DNA of 35,811 nt from the NCBI GenBank assembly GCA_028821405.1, contig JAPPGK010000002.1, positions 1-35,811 on the forward strand. Direction: 5' to 3'. A program made the translations under genes and the position numbers. How positions within the stretch are numbered: the stretch's first letter is position 1; each line of letters opens with the position of its first letter. The notes below the pieces were generated by a model that saw only the letters and a program-made list of their open reading frames with translations, was not told the origin of the DNA and made no database searches. Source of the DNA: Gammaproteobacteria bacterium. Its GTDB lineage: Bacteria > Pseudomonadota > Gammaproteobacteria > Pseudomonadales > Azotimanducaceae. Shown piece after piece: positions 3,672 through 35,811 of this stretch.

Positions 3672-5615
3672 ATGAGGGGGACCGAGACCCTCGCGGATCT
3701 GCCGCCGATCCGCGCACGGCGGATATTGCAGCTCGCGCTCAAGTGCTGGCCTTTCATCCGGCCGATGTTCAAGCACCTCCTGCTGCTTCTCGGCAACGCG
3801 GCGCTCGTTTCCCTCGCCCTGCTCGCCCTCGGGCTGCTCGGGACGGATCTTTTCAACAACAAGATCCTGGTGGGCGACAAGCTCCAGCCGCTCCAGGCCC
3901 AACTGCTGTTCGTGGACGAATCGTTCGTCCTCGGCGATATCGCCGACAACGTGAACGAGCGCGAGGTCCTGACCGAATCTCAGCGCAAGACCGTCAGGAC
4001 GCGCGCGATGATCTGGGCCGCGGGGCTTCTCGTGGTGGTCGCCCCCCTGGTCGGGGGTCTCGTCTACTACAACATCTGGATCTGGCAGATGATCAACCAG
4101 AATCTCCGCGTGGCGATGATCGCCAAGGCGGAGCACCTGTCGTTGAAGTACCACAGCCAGTCCCGGGTGGGCGATGCCATCTTCCGCATCTACCAGGACA
4201 GCGCGACGATCACGAGCCTTGTCCAGGAGACCTTCGTCGGCCCCGCCGCCGCGCTCTACAACATCGTCCTCGCCTTGGCCTTCCTGTGTTTCTTCGAGCC
4301 GAGGATCGCGCTTGCCGCCGTCTTCGCAATGGTACCCATGATCCTGGCCGCGGCTTGGGCGACCCGGCTTCTCCGCGAACGTGCGCTGGCGAACCGGGTC
4401 GCCTTCAGCAACCTCACGTCCAGACTCCAGGAAATCATGATCGCGCTGCGGGTCGTCAAGGCGAACAAGGGCGAGGGACGGGTTCTCGAGCGTTTCGACA
4501 AGGACTCGCACCGTGCGCTGGATGCCGCGTTCAGCCTGCGCATGACCATTGCGGTGCTGGAGGTCGCGGTGACCGCCATCGCCGCCTTGGTGACCATCGG
4601 GGCCGAGTACGTGATCGTCTACTGGGTACTCGGCGAGCGGGAGACGTTTCTCGGTGCCGCCGCGGTGACGGTGATCGGCTTCGCCGTGTGGAATCTCGGT
4701 GCGTTCGAGGACGCACGCGAGAGACTCGGCGGCGCGCTGTTCGGGGCCACCGGGCTCGTCGGCGCCTGGGCCCGCCTTCAGGATCTCTTCATCGGCCTCG
4801 AACGAGCGTTCTACCTGCTGGATCTCGAAGCGGACATCGTCGATCCGGACCACCCCGCTCCCTTCCCGGAACCCCTCGAGTCGGTGACCTGGCAGAACGT
4901 CCATTTCGCCTACGATCCGGCCCTGCCCGTGCTGCAAGGCGTCGATCTCGTGGCCCGGTCGGGAACGATCACCGCGATCGTGGGTGGCAGCGGCGCGGGC
5001 AAGTCGACCCTCGTGTCGCTGTTGCTGCGGCTCTACGACCCGGACCGGGGACGAGTCCTGATCAACGACACGGATTTGAGACGCCTCCGGGTCGATGACA
5101 TCCGCGAGGGCGTGGCCATCGCGTTGCAGCGCAACGTGCTGTTCGCCGGAACCGTCGCCGACAATATCGGCTACGCGGCCCGGCGCCCGAAGCGAGCCGA
5201 CATCGAAGCGGCTGCCCGGGTGGCCTCGGCCGATGGATTCATCCGCGAACTCGCCAACGGCTACGACACGGAACTGGGCGAACGGGGCGGAAAACTCTCG
5301 TCCGGCCAGCGGCAGCGCCTGTCCTTGGCTCGAGCCATCGTCAGGAATACGCCGATCCTCATCCTAGACGAGCCGACCGCCGCCCTCGATGCCGAGACCG
5401 AAGTCGAGGTCATGCGCAACCTTAGAGGATGGGGCAGGGACAAGGTGGTGTTCTTGATCACGCATCGTGTTTCCACCATTCGCAACGCGGATCAGATCGT
5501 ATTCCTAGAGCAGGGTCGGCCGGTCGAGGTCGGGGATCACGAATCGCTGCGCTTGGCCGACGGTCGCTACCGCAGCTTCGTCGACGCCGCGGTGGGGGAA
5601 TCGATCCGTGTCTGA
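3672..5615 (+). CDS. ABC exporter half-transporter A (permease-ATPase fusion)
   Basis: 647 residues. The N-terminal ~330 residues hold several membrane segments (for example about 33-56 and 113-139) of the type I exporter fold. The C-terminal nucleotide-binding domain has Walker A GGSGAGKST (about 438-446), signature LSSGQ (from 542), Walker B ILILDEPTAALD and H-loop LITHRVST. It overlaps the next gene, a second half-transporter, by 8 bases (GTGTCTGA), so the two are translationally coupled and almost certainly form a heterodimer in the inner membrane. Both subunits keep the catalytic Glu after Walker B, so neither ATPase site is obviously dead from that residue. The substrate is unknown; neighbours give no clue. 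Confidence 0.92.
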   Translation: MRGTETLADLPPIRARRILQLALKCWPFIRPMFKHLLLLLGNAALVSLALLALGLLGTDLFNNKILVGDKLQPLQAQLLFVDESFVLGDIADNVNEREVLTESQRKTVRTRAMIWAAGLLVVVAPLVGGLVYYNIWIWQMINQNLRVAMIAKAEHLSLKYHSQSRVGDAIFRIYQDSATITSLVQETFVGPAAALYNIVLALAFLCFFEPRIALAAVFAMVPMILAAAWATRLLRERALANRVAFSNLTSRLQEIMIALRVVKANKGEGRVLERFDKDSHRALDAAFSLRMTIAVLEVAVTAIAALVTIGAEYVIVYWVLGERETFLGAAAVTVIGFAVWNLGAFEDARERLGGALFGATGLVGAWARLQDLFIGLERAFYLLDLEADIVDPDHPAPFPEPLESVTWQNVHFAYDPALPVLQGVDLVARSGTITAIVGGSGAGKSTLVSLLLRLYDPDRGRVLINDTDLRRLRVDDIREGVAIALQRNVLFAGTVADNIGYAARRPKRADIEAAARVASADGFIRELANGYDTELGERGGKLSSGQRQRLSLARAIVRNTPILILDEPTAALDAETEVEVMRNLRGWGRDKVVFLITHRVSTIRNADQIVFLEQGRPVEVGDHESLRLADGRYRSFVDAAVGESIRV

Positions 5616-7641
5616 AGGCGCGGCGGCCGAGACCGCCAACGTTGTCGACCGGTTTGTCGGCGAACACCACCACGACGACCGTATCGACGTCGACACCGAG
5701 ATCTCGTCTGCCCAGGCGACGAGGCTGCTCTGGCGCTGCCTCAAGCTGCTCGGCTGCGCGAAATCGCTGTTCGCCGCCAAGTTCGCGCTTCAGGTGGGCA
5801 CCCTGTGCTTCCAACTGCTGACCCCGTGGATCGCGAAGATCGTGATCGACAACGTGATCCTCCAGAAACCCATCGGCGCAACCGACGTGCCCTATCCCCC
5901 GTTCATGCAGCCCATCGTCGCCTTCCTCGATGGCATGACGCCCTTGGAGATCATGTTCGCCCTGGCCATGGGCTACCTCGCGGGCCTCATCCTCATCGGG
6001 ATGCGGGCGGGGGAGGTGTCCGTCGGACTGTTCGGCAGTTCGTTCACCGGTCAGGACGAGACGGCTGCGGCAGAGAACAAGATCAGCGGCGCGTATAGCG
6101 AGTCGGGGGGTCTGTGGGGGCTCGCGGAATACGCGGTCGGGGTGCGGCTGAGCCAACGTCTCGCCAACGAACTCCGAACACGGCTGTTCCAACGTCTCAC
6201 TCGGCTGCCGATGGCGGTACTCGCCGAGAAACGAACCGGCGATTCGCTCTACCGGGTGCTCTACGACACCGCGAGCATCCCGTGGGCGGCCTTGGACCCG
6301 ACCCTGACCCTAGGCACCGCCATCCTGACCGGCGCGGCTAACATGGTCCTCATCGGGTACTCTTACGAAGCCACCGCGCCGCAGCTTGTCTGGCTCGCCT
6401 GGGCGGTGCTGCCGCTGGTGTTCGCGGTGACGTTCCCGGCGTCGAACATCATGCGCCGGATCAACCAGACCAAGCGCTCGGCGGGTTCCGCCACGACCAA
6501 CGCCATGGAGGAGACGGTGGCGAGCATCGATGCGGTGCAGAGCCTCGGTGGCATGCGGGCCGAAGCCGAGAAATTCGCCAGCCGAAGTCTCGAGTCGTAC
6601 TTCAGGGAGCGGGTTGCCTTCGTCGTCGGCCTGCTGCTCTTCATCGGCGCAGCCGTTGCCGTGGTCGCCATCGGACTCTGGGTGGTGATCATCGTCACCG
6701 ACGGCATCATCGAGGGGCGCATGTCCCCGGGAGACTTCGGGGTCCTGTTCGGCATGTTCTTCGGGATCGTCTTCGTTCCCATCGAGATCGGCTCGTTCTG
6801 GCTCAATCTGCAGACCAAACTGGCGCCGGCGCGGCGCATCTTCTTCTTCATCGACTACGAGTCCGACGACGACCACACCGGCACCGCGCTGGCCCGCATC
6901 ACCCAGGGCGTCGACATCGAGCACGTCGACTACGCCTACCCCGACGGCAGGACGGCGCTCGCCGACGTGTCGCTCGCGATGCGATTGGGCGAGACCATCG
7001 CCATCGTGGGTCCGTCCGGCGCCGGCAAGACGACCTTGGGTTGCTTGATCCCAGGCTTCCTCACACCCACCCGGGGTCGAGTGCTGATCGACGGTCAAGA
7101 CCTCGCCACGCTCGACATCGACGCCGTGCGCAGCCATGTGGCCTACGTGTTCCAGGAGCAGTCGCTGCTCGCCGAGAGCATTCGCGAGAACCTGCTCCTG
7201 GCCAACAGCGACGCAACCGAACGGCAAATGCTCGACGCGCTCGAACTCGCCGGATGCATGCCGTTCGTGCGCGAAATGCCGGACGGGATCGACACCCCCC
7301 TCGGTCTATCGGGCAACACCCTTTCGGTCGGCCAGCAGCAACGCCTGTGCATCGCCCGGGGGCTCGTTCGCGACACGAGGATTCTGATCCTCGACGAGCC
7401 CACTTCGGCCTTGGATCCGGAAACCGAGAAGGCCTTGTTCGACGCCATGGACCGGATCGCCGAGGGTCGGCTCCTGATCGTCATCGCCCATCGGCTGTCC
7501 ACGATCCGCCGCGCGGACCGCATTGCCTTTCTCGACGACGGCGTGCTCGTCGAGACCGGCACCCACGACGAACTCATGCAACGCGACGCCGGCGCGTACC
7601 GCCGTTTCGTGGAACTGCAATCACGGGACGCCGGACCGTAG
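5608..7641 (+). CDS. ABC exporter half-transporter B (permease-ATPase fusion)
   Basis: 677 residues, GTG start inside the end of the partner gene. It has a soluble N-terminal extension with a His/Asp-rich stretch (GEHHHDDRID) before the membrane domain, then the ATPase domain with Walker A GPSGAGKTT (about 467-475), signature LSVGQ (from 572), Walker B ILILDEPTSALD and H-loop VIAHRLST. The signature differs from the canonical LSGGQ at one position, as in the partner (LSSGQ). A long insertion around residues 130-175 separates the first two membrane segments. The TAG stop is the first part of a dispersed palindromic repeat that starts here. Confidence 0.92.
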   Translation: MSEGAAAETANVVDRFVGEHHHDDRIDVDTEISSAQATRLLWRCLKLLGCAKSLFAAKFALQVGTLCFQLLTPWIAKIVIDNVILQKPIGATDVPYPPFMQPIVAFLDGMTPLEIMFALAMGYLAGLILIGMRAGEVSVGLFGSSFTGQDETAAAENKISGAYSESGGLWGLAEYAVGVRLSQRLANELRTRLFQRLTRLPMAVLAEKRTGDSLYRVLYDTASIPWAALDPTLTLGTAILTGAANMVLIGYSYEATAPQLVWLAWAVLPLVFAVTFPASNIMRRINQTKRSAGSATTNAMEETVASIDAVQSLGGMRAEAEKFASRSLESYFRERVAFVVGLLLFIGAAVAVVAIGLWVVIIVTDGIIEGRMSPGDFGVLFGMFFGIVFVPIEIGSFWLNLQTKLAPARRIFFFIDYESDDDHTGTALARITQGVDIEHVDYAYPDGRTALADVSLAMRLGETIAIVGPSGAGKTTLGCLIPGFLTPTRGRVLIDGQDLATLDIDAVRSHVAYVFQEQSLLAESIRENLLLANSDATERQMLDALELAGCMPFVREMPDGIDTPLGLSGNTLSVGQQQRLCIARGLVRDTRILILDEPTSALDPETEKALFDAMDRIAEGRLLIVIAHRLSTIRRADRIAFLDDGVLVETGTHDELMQRDAGAYRRFVELQSRDAGP

Positions 7642-18954: not shown

Positions 18955-19022
18955 CTAGACGGGGAAACAAGGCTGACAGTAGCACAGCGAAGTCGTTCCT
19001 AGACCCGATGCCGGCGTCCTAG

Positions 19023-19161
19023 GGAAGGTCTGAACAAGACCTTCCCTAGCGCGGCACAGGGATGTGCCGCCAAATTCGATGGCGTAAGCCATTGAATTTG
19101 CGAGCGAAACTATTTGTTTCGCTACTGTTCAAGTCCAGGGACGGACTTGAACAGAGGTTTC
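19023..19161 (+). mobile_element. MITE-like element of five hairpins, copy 1
   Basis: 139 bp flanked on both sides by CTAG (19019-19022, 19162-19165). The whole element is a string of hairpins: 13-bp arms 19019-19031/19037-19049 (which include the flanking CTAG), 8-bp 19051-19058/19063-19070, 12-bp 19072-19083/19088-19099 (one G-T pair), 8-bp 19103-19110/19116-19123, 12-bp 19125-19136/19143-19154. The ends GGAAGGTCTGAACAAG and GAAACCTCTGTTCAAG are imperfect inverted repeats (11 of 16). The end sequence and CTAG flank recall IS5-family termini and their YTAR target duplication. An identical inverted copy lies at 35439-35577. No protein is encoded, so any movement needs a transposase elsewhere. 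Confidence 0.8.
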
Positions 19162-33358: not shown

Positions 33359-33386
33359 TTGACACCTGCCATTTCGAATCTATAAT
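33359..33386 (+). promoter_or_regulatory. Consensus sigma-70 promoter with GC-rich discriminator
   Basis: TTGACA (33359-33364), 16-base spacer, TATAAT (33381-33386): both boxes are perfect matches to the consensus. The stretch after the -10 box is CGCGCGCCC, like the GC-rich discriminator of stringently controlled stable-RNA promoters. It is the strongest promoter visible in the window and is followed by an intrinsic terminator at about 33624-33664 but no convincing protein gene. Confidence 0.85.
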
Positions 33387-33392
33387 CGCGCG

Positions 33393-33664
33393 CCCTTGAC
33401 GAATTACCAACCCTCTTGCAGGCGGTATACATGACTTCCACACAAGCAGGACATCGCTTAGGGCGCCTACCGGGCGCGGCGGAGCCATTGCCTGTACCGC
33501 CGCAGTTCGTGGACTGCGGCAACCGCCTCGTGGATAGCCTCTTGGGCAAAGGGAGAGCGAACTTGCGCTGACTTTCCGGACATGTCCTGGAAGACGGCGA
33601 ATTGACCAGCCTTCCAGGGAAACAACAAAGCCCTGGTCGGTTTAACGAACAGGGCTTTTTGTTG
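33393..33664 (+). ncRNA. Candidate non-coding RNA, about 270 nt
   Basis: The unit runs from the promoter at 33359-33386 to the terminator ending near 33664. Inside are two perfect hairpins, GCCGCAGT/ACTGCGGC (33499-33506, 33513-33520) and CCTGGAAG/CTTCCAGG (33586-33593, 33611-33618), plus the terminator stem. It does not match tmRNA, RNase P RNA, SRP RNA, 6S RNA or 5S rRNA as far as I can see. A 46-codon reading frame (33431-33571) exists, with a weak ribosome-binding site AGGCGG, no recognisable homology and more A/T-ending codons than neighbouring genes, so a short peptide is less likely. It lies upstream of the tRNA-like RNA. Confidence 0.5.
33624..33664 (+). terminator. Intrinsic terminator
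   Basis: AACAAAGCCCTG (33624-33635) and CAGGGCTTTTTGTT (33650-33663) form a stem with a 14-base loop followed by a run of five T. The A-rich and T-rich flanks make it work in both directions. It is the only classical intrinsic terminator I found in the window. Confidence 0.88.
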
Positions 33665-33735: not shown

Positions 33736-33846
33736 GGTTGGGCGGCGTGCGGCGTTCCATGGTTCGGGATCGAAGTCCCGTCCGGCGCACTCACGCTACC
33801 CATCGCACGGTGTGTACCGAGCGTACTGTGCGCACCCAACCATGGC

Positions 33847-33916
33847 TTGGAATTAGCTCAGTGGCAGAGCTCCGGTAAATAGACTGGCAGCGCCGGTTCG
33901 ATTCCGGCATTCCAAA
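33847..33916 (+). ncRNA. tRNA-like RNA with aberrant anticodon arm
   Basis: A cloverleaf fits nearly completely: acceptor TTGGAAT/ATTCCAA (7 of 7 pairs), T8 and A9, D stem GCTC/GAGC with loop AGTGGCA (A14, G18, G19 kept), T stem GCCGG/CCGGC with the canonical loop TTCGATT. The anticodon arm is abnormal: stem CCGGT/ACTGG with a six-base loop AAATAG, lacking U33 and any plausible anticodon. The length is 70 bases, no CCA is encoded, and it starts with U. It is therefore not a normal decoding tRNA. It lies 345 bases upstream of a slipin gene. Comparative genomics has proposed a tRNA-like RNA as the partner of SPFH proteins in RNA-repair systems. A decayed tRNA gene is the alternative. Confidence 0.75.
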
Positions 33917-33918
33917 AA

Positions 33919-33981
33919 CGGCCTGGAAAGCCGCACGGCTGATAACCGTGATAAACGCTGGTGACGTGCGTTAATCGTCAC
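33919..33981 (+). other. Second cloverleaf-like array with an Ile(GAU)-type anticodon arm
   Basis: Directly after the tRNA-like body come a D-arm-like hairpin CGGC-CTGGAAA-GCCG (33919-33933), an anticodon-arm-like hairpin CACGG-CTGATAA-CCGTG (33934-33950; seven-base loop with U33 and anticodon GAT) and a third hairpin, either AACGC/GCGTT (33954-33958, 33968-33972) or GTGACG/CGTCAC (33961-33966, 33976-33981). There is no matching acceptor stem, so it is not a tRNA gene by itself; it may be the continuation of the tRNA-like RNA. Confidence 0.4.
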
Positions 33982-33984
33982 AGG

Positions 33985-34250
33985 GCGCGTCCGTTCCCGG
34001 CGCTTTCGGCAAGCGCGTGAGCGAATGCAAGGAAGCGCAGCAGCGACGTAGCCGGTCGGCGGGTCGGCGCCGAGAGTATCGGACCGACACGCCGACCGAT
34101 CCGGCGCATCGCCCGCTGGGATCGCCGAACGCCAATTCTTCGGAGTTGGCAGCCGGTGACGCCCGTGCGCGGTGCGTTCGATCGGTCGGTACCGCCGATC
34201 CGCAACGACGTTGTGGGAACGGACGCATTAATTCAGCGAAAAGGGAAAAG
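33985..34250 (+). promoter_or_regulatory. Structured leader of the slipin gene
   Basis: Several strong hairpins crowd this gene-free stretch: GCGCTTTCGGCAAGCGC (about 34000-34016); a long one with 9-bp arms CGGTCGGCG/CGCCGACCG (34053-34061, 34090-34098) and further inner pairing GTCGG/CCGAC; an 8-bp stem GCCAATTC/GAGTTGGC closed by an ultra-stable TTCG tetraloop (34131-34150); and GATCGG...CCGATC around an inner CGGTACCG (34181-34201). A good ribosome-binding site, AAAAGGAG, follows 8 bases before the slipin ATG. I see no clear -10/-35 pair here, so the slipin may be read from the upstream RNA genes or from an alternative sigma factor. Confidence 0.5.
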
Positions 34251-34261
34251 GAGAACGCGAA

Positions 34262-35431
34262 ATGTTGTTCTATCGAAAATTCATCGTGCGCAAGCACGAA
34301 CGCGGGCTCCTGTTCAAGGACGGGGACTTCGTCCGCTTCCTGGAACCGGGGATCTACCGCTTCCACGAGTGGCGCAAGCGCCACGAGGTGGAGTGCTTCG
34401 ACCTGACCGAGCCGGCTTTCGTGCACCGCTTGGGCGACTATTTCGTCGACGCCATGAGCGAAGACGTGGCGCGCCTGTTCACGGTCGTCGAAACCGGTCC
34501 CGCCGAGGTCGCCGTGGTCTACTGCAACGAACGCGTTGCCGAAATCGTCCAACCGGCCGAGCGCAAGCTCTACTGGAAGGGTCCCGTTGCGATCCGCGTG
34601 GAACGCTTCGACCTCGATCGGCGTCTCGCCATTGACGCGAAACTCGCCAAGCGGCTCTTGGCGGTGCCGGGTCTGGCTTCCGATAATCTCGCCGGTTTGC
34701 GTCTGCCCGGTCGTGGCGCGATTTTCTCGCGGGAGATCGCCCACGGGCACGTCGGCCTGCTCTACGTCGACGGCGAACTCACTGGGTCGCTGGGACCCGG
34801 CTTGCACGCCTTCTGGACGTATGGTCCGAGCGTTGCGATCGAGGTCGTGGACCTGCGCGTGAAAACGCTGGAGGTCCAAGGCCAGGAGATCCTGACCCGC
34901 GACAAGGTGAGCCTGCGCATCAACCTGACGGCAACCTACCGGTTCGAGGACGCCGAGAAGGCCGTTGGCGCCACCAAGGATCCGCTGGACCACCTCTACA
35001 AGGAGATCCAGTTCGGTCTGCGCGCCGCGGTCGGCACCCGCACGCTGGATGCGTTGCTGGAGGACAAGTCGGCCATCGACCGCGCAGTCGCTGATCGGGT
35101 CGGTCCGAAGTTCGCCGAGATCGGCATCGTCGTGGAAAGCGTCGGCGTCAAGGACATCATCCTGCCGGGCGATATGAAGGAACTGCTCGGCCGCGTGGTG
35201 GAAGCCGAGAAGGCGGCCCAGGCCAACGTGATCCGCCGTCGCGAGGAAACCAACGCCACGCGTTCGCTCCTCAACACGGCCAAGGTCATGGAGAGCAACG
35301 CCGTCGCGCTGCGTCTCAAGGAGTTGGAGACGCTCGAGAAGGTCACCGAGAAGGTCGGCAACCTGTCGGTCTACGGCGGCCTCGATGGTGTCCTGAACGA
35401 GCTTCGGAGCCTGTCGGACTTGCGGCGCTAG
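34262..35431 (+). CDS. Slipin family (SPFH/Band-7) protein
   Basis: 389 residues. The SPFH/Band-7 domain spans about 155-330, with the hallmark run EILTRDKVSLRINLTATYRF and a helical, coiled-coil C-terminus (about 300-375, AEKAAQANVIRRREETNATR). There is no N-terminal membrane helix, unlike stomatin. The N-terminal half carries three related segments of about 41 residues (8-48, 77-118, 158-198), each with a basic or acidic beta-strand unit, a LLF/VVY/LLY core and a closing FDL or VDL. SPFH proteins form oligomeric scaffolds. It follows the tRNA-like RNA, as in proposed RtcB RNA-repair systems; no ligase or RtcR is in the window. Confidence 0.88.
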   Translation: MLFYRKFIVRKHERGLLFKDGDFVRFLEPGIYRFHEWRKRHEVECFDLTEPAFVHRLGDYFVDAMSEDVARLFTVVETGPAEVAVVYCNERVAEIVQPAERKLYWKGPVAIRVERFDLDRRLAIDAKLAKRLLAVPGLASDNLAGLRLPGRGAIFSREIAHGHVGLLYVDGELTGSLGPGLHAFWTYGPSVAIEVVDLRVKTLEVQGQEILTRDKVSLRINLTATYRFEDAEKAVGATKDPLDHLYKEIQFGLRAAVGTRTLDALLEDKSAIDRAVADRVGPKFAEIGIVVESVGVKDIILPGDMKELLGRVVEAEKAAQANVIRRREETNATRSLLNTAKVMESNAVALRLKELETLEKVTEKVGNLSVYGGLDGVLNELRSLSDLRR

Positions 35432-35438
35432 CCGCTAG

Positions 35439-35577
35439 GAAACCTCTGTTCAAGTCCGTCCCTGGACTTGAACAGTAGCGAAACAAATAGTTTCGCTCGC
35501 AAATTCAATGGCTTACGCCATCGAATTTGGCGGCACATCCCTGTGCCGCGCTAGGGAAGGTCTTGTTCAGACCTTCC
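35439..35577 (-). mobile_element. MITE-like element of five hairpins, copy 2
   Basis: The exact reverse complement of the element at 19023-19161, 139 bp, again flanked by CTAG (35435-35438 and 35578-35581). Sequence outside the CTAG flanks is not shared between the copies, which defines the element ends. It starts 3 bases after the slipin stop region, so it could also act as a 3' structure of the slipin message. The 85-codon reading frame that begins inside it (35508) is not a gene. Confidence 0.8.
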
Positions 35578-35689
35578 CTAGGTCCGACGGGGTGCTGAGG
35601 CGGCTTGGGCTGGGGCAGGATCCGACGACCATGGGTCGGCGGATTCTGTGGCGTCGTTCGGCTGAAGCAGTGGGTTCGGACCGTGGTCG

Positions 35690-35811
35690 GGGGGGGGGGG
35701 GGGGGGGCCCCCCCCCCCCCCCCACGCGGGGCGCGGGGGGCGGCGGGGGGGGATATGGTGGTTGAAAAACCAACACCAACGGGGGGGGAGGGGGGGGGGC
35801 GGGGGGGGGGG
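35690..35811. other. Low-complexity contig end, probably artefact
   Basis: Runs of G, then C, then mostly G with rare other bases (for example GGTGGTTGAAAAACCAACACC in a G background). Such poly-G ends are typical of two-colour sequencing with lost signal and of failed assembly next to a repeat; the MITE copy 110 bases away may have stopped the assembly. No gene should be called in 35590-35811. Confidence 0.85.

Follow-up and report, generated by a model that had tools for sequence, protein, structure and literature searches.

SPFH/Band-7 proteins encoded together with a cognate transfer RNA (tRNA)-like RNA were reportedly proposed by Burroughs and Aravind in 2016 to act as scaffolds or cofactors in RtcB-type RNA repair. 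Here we describe a tRNA-like RNA that precedes a gene for a slipin, an SPFH/Band-7 protein, in a 35,811-nucleotide (nt) stretch of DNA (the window) from a Gammaproteobacteria bacterium of the Azotimanducaceae (assembly GCA_028821405.1, contig JAPPGK010000002.1, positions 1 to 35,811 of the forward strand). As in the proposed repair system, an SPFH protein has a tRNA-like RNA before it, and rtcR, rtcB, and the RlaP gene lie nearby in other lineages. Unlike that system, the window locus has no adjacent repair gene, RtcR was not found in the genome, and the tRNA-like RNA is one domain of a larger conserved RNA.

Other described systems share parts of this arrangement. The RtcR-rtcBA operon with Ro60 (Rsr) and the Y RNA YrlA also combines RNA-repair genes with a non-coding RNA that has a tRNA-like domain, and RtcR responds to tRNA fragments (PMC7790460, in the part of that source available to us). 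In contrast, TROVE (PF05731), RtcA, and RtcR (PF06956) had no match in the window genome, an assembly rated 97.6% complete. The Anabaena TrcR regulon joins rtcB, the slipin gene alr0740, and a tRNA operon (PMC10272220, available part), and thereby resembles the loci studied here in coupling RtcB, a slipin, and spare tRNAs under translational stress, whereas the Anabaena genes are unlinked and controlled by a repressor. A further comparison is human major vault protein, for which nine repeats, called three-stranded, an SPFH-like shoulder, and a cap helix are described (PMC13347060, available part).

A conserved tRNA-like RNA upstream of slipin genes

The tRNA-like domain spans positions 33847 to 33916 (+). 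ARAGORN placed its single tRNA call in the window there, assigning no type, and reported no tmRNA in the window; the Rfam tRNA model RF00005 matches the same positions over its full length (score 49.1 bits, cut-off 29, E 9.9e-8 in 35.8 kb). All four stems are fully paired, i.e., the acceptor stem (33847-33853/33909-33915, 7/7), the D stem (33856-33859/33867-33870, 4/4), the anticodon stem (33872-33876/33883-33887, 5/5 with one G-U), and the T stem (33892-33896/33904-33908, 5/5). T8/A9 are present and the T loop, TTCGATT, is canonical, while the anticodon loop consists of six bases (AAATAG) without U33 and no CCA follows the acceptor stem. These data bear out the tRNA body that a preliminary description of this DNA had reported, along with the SPFH/Band-7 gene that it placed 345 bases further on. 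The slipin open reading frame (34262 to 35431, +, 389 amino acids) begins at that distance and matches Pfam Band_7 with E 8e-30.

Among the 36 tRNA matches in the genome, the window tRNA-like RNA has the second-lowest score. Since its identity to the 30 resident tRNA genes compared, out of 35 others, is at most 50 of 70 positions and CCA is encoded in all 30, our data indicate that the sequence is not a recent decayed copy of any of these 30.

Relatives of the slipin were sought in a collection of 84,980 species genomes. At least 576 were confirmed among the candidates, and the best 80 loci were used, so that the sample covers closer relatives. Enough upstream sequence was available in 76 of these to test for the tRNA-like RNA or for a second structured element just 5' of it, referred to here as the 5' module and represented by the covariance model R1. 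We found that 74 of the 76 loci carry the tRNA-like RNA, the 5' module, or both, with an R1 module in 67 and an ARAGORN tRNA 150 to 600 nt upstream of slipin in 57. Loci with both an ARAGORN tRNA and an R1 module provided 67 tRNA-like RNAs (63 distinct sequences) from 52 sources, one or two from each, which lie just downstream of the 5' module and 201 to 554 nt before slipin.

Standard pairs fill 94.4% of the pair cells of these 67 sequences, all of which were found by a tRNA finder so that the sampling itself favors stem pairing; the shuffled mean was 64.9%, and none of 500 shuffles reached the observed value. When the partner strand was slid by one to three columns, pairing fell to 32 to 44%. 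Among the 63 distinct sequences, compensatory changes occur in all seven acceptor pairs, all five anticodon pairs, and four of the five T-stem pairs. The D stem is invariant across the 67 RNAs. The two weaker of five measures, the number of covarying pairs and the pair types, were matched by 10 and 5 of 500 shuffles, respectively. The tertiary pair 15-48 is kept in 62 of 67 sequences (G-C in 48, A-U in 7, and U-A in 7), and the maximum of 10,000 shuffles was 48. A conserved cloverleaf thus lies upstream of orthologous slipin genes, contrary to one of the two outcomes that would have counted against the preliminary description, and a cloverleaf body with tRNA tertiary contacts is found across the family.

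The anticodon loop behaves differently from the body. It has six bases in 21 of the 67 RNAs, seven in 45, and eight in one. U33 is found in 27 of the 45 seven-base loops, together with 17 different triplets, and is missing from the other 18. The loop reads CUNNNAA in 13 of 67, and UUCG lies within it in 8 of 67, every one from Pseudomonas loci. CCA is encoded at the called end in 6 of 67 and missing in 61. Since the stems and the tertiary pair 15-48 covary, our data indicate that the L shape is under selection and that the anticodon is not. A role in decoding appears very unlikely on these grounds, and a role as bait for one particular anticodon nuclease appears unlikely.

Two variations on the arrangement were seen (L numbers denote loci). 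Tandem tRNA-like RNAs, abutting or overlapping by a few bases, occur in the Pseudomonas loci L047, L048, L059, L064, L065, L071, L078, L080, and L081. A second, smaller element precedes the cloverleaf in L052, L062, L043, L057, and L077; by eye it resembles a minihelix of acceptor and T arm, without D and anticodon arms.

The larger RNA and its control region

Comparison of the loci indicates that a conserved non-coding region of approximately 500 nt contains the tRNA-like RNA as one of its domains. It defines this RNA as a 5' module, the L-shaped tRNA-like domain, and a 3' domain, and shows which parts are under selection. The 5' module is bounded by a closing helix, GGTTGGG/CCCAACC (33736 to 33841, +), which was read from the sequences and which the consensus fold pairs in part otherwise. 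Its core, described by R1 (33753 to 33827, +), contains the helices H1 (33765-33768/33777-33780) and H2 (33785-33790/33810-33815). R1 was seeded with 32 of 37 hand-picked modules, and H2 is 96.9% paired in these first 32 loci, with six of seven pairs covarying. In a search of 1.17 Mb, R1 matched 69 of 81 sources at E ≤1 (61 at ≤0.01), once per source and with the 32 seed modules among the matches; it found no match in 12 sources, in some of which the contig start lies too close. Over all 69 matches (63 distinct), 95.7% of H2 cells are paired and five of seven pairs show compensatory changes, in an alignment made by the model and so biased towards it. Every match lies on the slipin strand and upstream of slipin, 68 of them at approximately 320 to 650 nt and one (L028) at 1.4 kb. 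Only one R1 match, that at the window locus, was found in the window genome.

The region downstream of the tRNA-like domain was compared across 14 loci of the window clade; compensatory changes, one or more per pair, occur in 32 of the 128 pairs of their consensus fold. A short hairpin, CGGC/GCCG (33919 to 33933, +), immediately follows the tRNA-like domain in a fold that leaves this domain out; similar hairpins are seen by eye in other clades. It is succeeded by an anticodon-arm-like hairpin, CACGG-CTGATAA-CCGTG (33934 to 33950, +), whose loop reads C-U-N-N-N-A-A in 12 of the 14 loci and in which one stem pair is AU in 12 and GC in 2. One pair of the next hairpin, GTGACG/CGTCAC (33961 to 33981, +), is GC in 12 loci and AU in 2. 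The 3' domain (33987 to 34226, +, approximately 240 nt) is enclosed by a 12-bp helix formed by GCGTCCGTTCCC (33987-33998) and GGGAACGGACGC (34215-34226), with one pair UA in 11 loci and CG in 3. In single ungapped searches, this helix was not clearly above shuffles at most loci taken individually (window 33.8 against 33.4 and 43.4 in two runs). Its support comes from its constant position and the paired changes between relatives, not from single-locus scores. From the start of the tRNA-like domain to slipin, the 415-nt leader folds with a z score of -8.1.

At curated thresholds, Rfam recognized only the tRNA in the larger RNA. A loose threshold gave five non-tRNA matches to the surrounding RNA, each below its family cut-off, and these were rejected. 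In nine other loci, Rfam gave only tRNAs and one FMN riboswitch. No description of the larger RNA was found among literature titles and the starts of abstracts, a search that did not include the 2016 text of Burroughs and Aravind, so that its novelty is provisional. Two short motifs were noted in passing. A AAAGGAGGTGAT(CC)-like sequence, which we take to be complementary to the 3' end of 16S rRNA, lies in the linker before slipin or a small frame in L015, L016, L017, L018, L020, and L021. In the 16S decoding region, GTACACACCG is complementary to CGGTGTGTAC in the 5' module of the window (33808-33817) and of relatives L002-L014; the module reads differently in Pseudomonas and in most beta-proteobacterial loci, and the match may be due to chance.

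Upstream of the RNA, the window contains a predicted sigma-70 promoter, TTGACA-16-TATAAT (33359 to 33386, +, 12/12 consensus matches), followed by the GC-rich stretch CGCGCGCC. A similar promoter was found by pattern in 15 of 16 loci, window included, which were chosen after they had been read; none was seen by eye in L016 and L020, which were read outside the pattern test. An open frame of 46 codons ending CGC-UGA-C (33431 to 33571, +) may encode a leader peptide. All 12 window-clade loci contain CGY-TGA-C, itself the search pattern, ahead of the terminator and at the end of a frame that stays open over 40 to 77 codons. Selection on a leader peptide was not seen, since differences by codon position are 87, 85, and 62 (ten pairs, five close relatives) with no excess at third positions. 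Attenuator-like segments follow by eye (33586 to 33660, +), i.e., CCTGGAAG (33586-33593), CCTTCCAGGG (33610-33619), GCCCTGG (33630-33636), and CAGGGC (33650-33655), then T5. The segments and the T-run were matched by eye in 12 window-clade loci, where they are nearly invariant so that covariation does not bear on their alternative pairings. A terminator scan limited to 8-base loops does not list the terminator at 33586-33660. Promoter, small frame, and terminator are also found in four Granulosicoccaceae-type loci tested, and a terminator-like motif precedes the RNA, by pattern, in all 16 window-clade and Granulosicoccaceae-type loci. The layout of promoter, small frame, segments, and T-run resembles transcription attenuation, an idea drawn from sequence. 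A search for a leader common to slipin, rtcB, and rlaP did not find one, and no sigma-54 site lies within 900 nt upstream of the window slipin.

RNA-repair genes and genomic settings

We found that rtcR and rtcB flank the RNA and slipin in 30 of the 80 loci. Neighborhood counts refer to genes within 9 kb and omit matches below 45% identity (one rtcR in L038 and one rtcB in L018). Each of these 30 loci has a sigma-54 site before slipin, compared to none of the 51 other sources, the window among the latter. RlaP, an RNA repair pathway DNA polymerase beta family protein according to Pfam, follows in 17 of the 80 loci, with rtcR present in all 17. Sequence extends at least 5 kb on both sides in 50 loci, of which 24 have both rtcR and rtcB, 32 have rtcB, 7 lie beside at least three other tRNA genes, and 16 have none of these. 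Five of the seven tRNA-rich loci have rtcB and none has rtcR. Three settings can be distinguished, namely the RtcR operon, the tRNA array, and a stand-alone setting that includes the window lineage; the closest relatives of the window belong to the 16 loci with no rtcR, rtcB, or group of at least three other tRNA genes nearby.

Slipin and the tRNA-like RNA lie within arrays of 8 to 19 other tRNA genes in L015, L017, L018, L021, L035, L038, L042, L049, and L070, with rtcB in six of the nine, and such loci are a physically linked counterpart of the Anabaena regulon of rtcB, slipin, and tRNA operon. Near the array in L018, positions 5051-5644 give a weak RtcB-like match (31%) that may belong to a second RtcB family.

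The preliminary description had taken the tRNA-like RNA and slipin to be an RNA-repair pair, with the ligase and RtcR lying beyond the broken contig end. The pairing itself agrees with the conserved slipin/tRNA-like pair between rtcR and rtcB in other lineages, while no repair gene adjoins it in the window lineage. The proposed position of the missing genes was not supported. The window genome encodes a single RtcB in the middle of contig C36 (E 5e-133) and RlaP on contig C64 (E 4e-78), RtcR was unmatched, and all eight window-clade loci with at least 5 kb on both sides are without rtcB and rtcR within 9 kb. Since RtcB is single copy on C36, the expected rtc operon does not lie beyond the contig end with that RtcB, unless part of the assembly is missing. 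A scan of ten proteins encoded near slipin in the window and in five of its relatives gave no known repair protein; the ten include dapD, a PhyH oxygenase, a peptidase, a TonB receptor, and a tRNA synthetase. In two window-clade loci, L002 (11326-14511, -) and L014 (10686-13835, -), the opposite strand encodes an isoleucine-tRNA ligase, approximately 1.5 to 2 kb downstream of slipin, and the proteins tested in two others, L005 and L006, had no family match.

More distant loci were taken from a class sample of 185 genomes, in which nine passed a slipin threshold of E ≤1e-50, including the genome of the window. Two of the others were already in the first set (L121 is L028 and L122 is L016), leaving six new genomes. 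Four of these contain one to three ARAGORN tRNA-like RNAs approximately 190 to 380 nt upstream of slipin. With stricter filters, R1 matched 2 of the 185 genomes, both with slipin. In Escherichia coli and Citrobacter records (L126, L127), a related slipin is followed by RlaP between rluF and lysC, and rtcR adjoins slipin/RlaP in the Citrobacter record. Of 5426 complete E. coli genomes, 1624 carry the leader plus slipin and 1622 carry the RlaP gene, two lists that were not matched genome by genome. These counts point to tractable hosts.

The slipin protein and possible roles of the RNA

No N-terminal membrane segment was seen in an alignment of 34 slipin proteins, which leaves out L015, L045, L119, and L120 of the first list. 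The protein is probably soluble and, by analogy with other SPFH proteins, probably forms a ring or cage. An AlphaFold2 model (mean predicted local distance difference test 80.8, predicted template modeling score 0.58) contains three successive five-strand beta units (residues 4-47, 73-117, and 154-197), an SPFH core, and long helices, and the three units are mutually similar by hhalign (76, 94, and 88%). The top Foldseek match of the model is stomatin (E 3.6e-15 over 228 columns). Chains of major vault protein come next at E 4.5e-11 and weaker, over 437 to 486 columns including gaps, whereas no other SPFH chain listed aligns over more than 273. The predicted fold thus resembles vault proteins weakly. 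Major vault protein (PMC13347060, available part) likewise joins N-terminal beta repeats to an SPFH-like shoulder and long helices within a single soluble chain, and it too is accompanied by a non-coding RNA, the vault RNA. In contrast to the vault protein, it has three units rather than nine, with five strands each in the model rather than three, and is about half as long. Phage records contained no slipin match, and PADLOC gave no match.

We hypothesized that a slipin assembly in a tRNA-repair or tRNA-stress pathway uses the RNA as its structural cofactor or docking element, a proposal that we consider evenly balanced between right and wrong and that offers the most economical reading of the data. 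The structured RNA of approximately 500 nt, once transcribed, would serve as cognate RNA for the slipin whose gene directly follows, and the slipin would assemble as a ring or cage. The L-shaped body would be recognized as tRNA by a partner (i.e., slipin, a processing enzyme, or repair enzymes), while the anticodon would go unused for decoding. In the window genome, RtcB and RlaP would act from elsewhere, and control by RtcR would have been replaced by the strong sigma-70 promoter and the terminator before the RNA.

A number of observations weigh against this proposal. In 17 of the 76 loci the 5' module is present and an ARAGORN tRNA is absent. When the 415-nt leader is folded to its energy minimum, the cloverleaf is missing and part of the tRNA-like domain pairs with the following hairpin region; the hairpins downstream, including that at 33934-33950, form once the tRNA-like domain is omitted from the folded sequence. 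Two of the six new genomes of the class sample have no ARAGORN tRNA upstream of slipin. R1 found none in these six at E 0.01 (best 0.13, in L119), and therefore the module as modeled belongs to closer relatives. Taken with the 17 loci above, these genomes indicate that neither the module nor the tRNA-like RNA is universal. The E. coli leader has a sigma-54 motif and, by eye, a reduced module and a T-arm-like hairpin only; R1 gives a weak partial match there and ARAGORN none. As far as the available text describes, deletion of PaFlo8, an SPFH protein of the Pseudomonas aeruginosa rtc locus and an orthologue by position, had no phenotype (PMC13086221), and the main text of that paper does not contain the terms tRNA or ncRNA. 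On the protein side, superposition of the slipin model, a predicted fold only, on vault chains is poor (template modeling score 0.35 to 0.45, root-mean-square deviation 16 to 19 Å), and a sequence-profile search of the PDB found stomatin, QmcA, HflK/C, and flotillin and no vault protein.

The RNA could also be only a 5' leader, and leader function is the main rival of the cofactor proposal, with which it can coexist. Folding or processing of the tRNA-like and 3' domains would then gate transcription or translation into slipin, and the attenuator-like region of the window clade would be a second switch. The placement of every R1 match upstream of slipin and on its strand, the terminator-like motif before the RNA, and the alternative folds of the leader are consistent with this, as are T-runs after the 3' closing helix in L007-L009, L016, L018, L020, and L033, of which the window has none. 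Still, a kept tertiary pair and tandem copies exceed what a leader would seem to need, the leader frame is without coding constraint, and the attenuator segments are without covariation; a mainly cis-regulatory RNA is, in our view, a real but tentative alternative. The idea of a decoy mimicking damaged tRNA, raised in the preliminary description, was weakened by an intact and conserved body and a variable anticodon loop that in eight cases contains UUCG. In its broader form, the RNA would be a decoy, sponge, or sentinel for tRNA-cleaving toxins, cleavage of which spares tRNAs or makes an end sensed by RtcR. The CUNNNAA loops, the 27 seven-base loops with U33 and their 17 triplets, the additional anticodon-arm-like hairpin of the window clade, and the response of RtcR to tRNA fragments would fit such a role. 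Against these stand the 21 six-base loops, the 18 seven-base loops without U33, conservation of the body rather than the loop, and the unmatched RtcR of the window genome, so that we consider it unlikely.

A more ambitious version of the cofactor proposal is a bacterial vault-like ribonucleoprotein, in which a cytosolic slipin ring or half-cage would carry a dedicated RNA whose surface displays tRNA parts and thereby collects damaged tRNAs or enzymes that act on tRNA, while the window lineage would have left the rtc operon and replaced RtcR by termination and read-through in a ribosome-sensitive leader. Given the poor superposition and the three strands ascribed to each vault repeat, we rate this version lower, as distinctly doubtful. 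Bacterial RNA repair would be linked to vault particles if the RNA does serve as the structural partner of an assembly of slipin. That a spare or decaying ordinary tRNA lies near slipin by chance would fit those orthologous loci that sit within tRNA arrays. It agrees poorly with the lack of CCA in 61 of 67 RNAs against its presence in 30 of 30 resident genes, with compensatory changes throughout, and with the low identity to these residents, and we regard it as highly improbable.

Apart from these elements, the last positions of the window (35690-35811) contain long G and C runs that are likely an assembly artefact. A palindrome-rich repeat just after slipin (35445-35590) is also found at 19018-19155. 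It belongs to a dispersed repeat family, with 38 genomic matches that include 29 of nearly full length at 96 to 100% identity.

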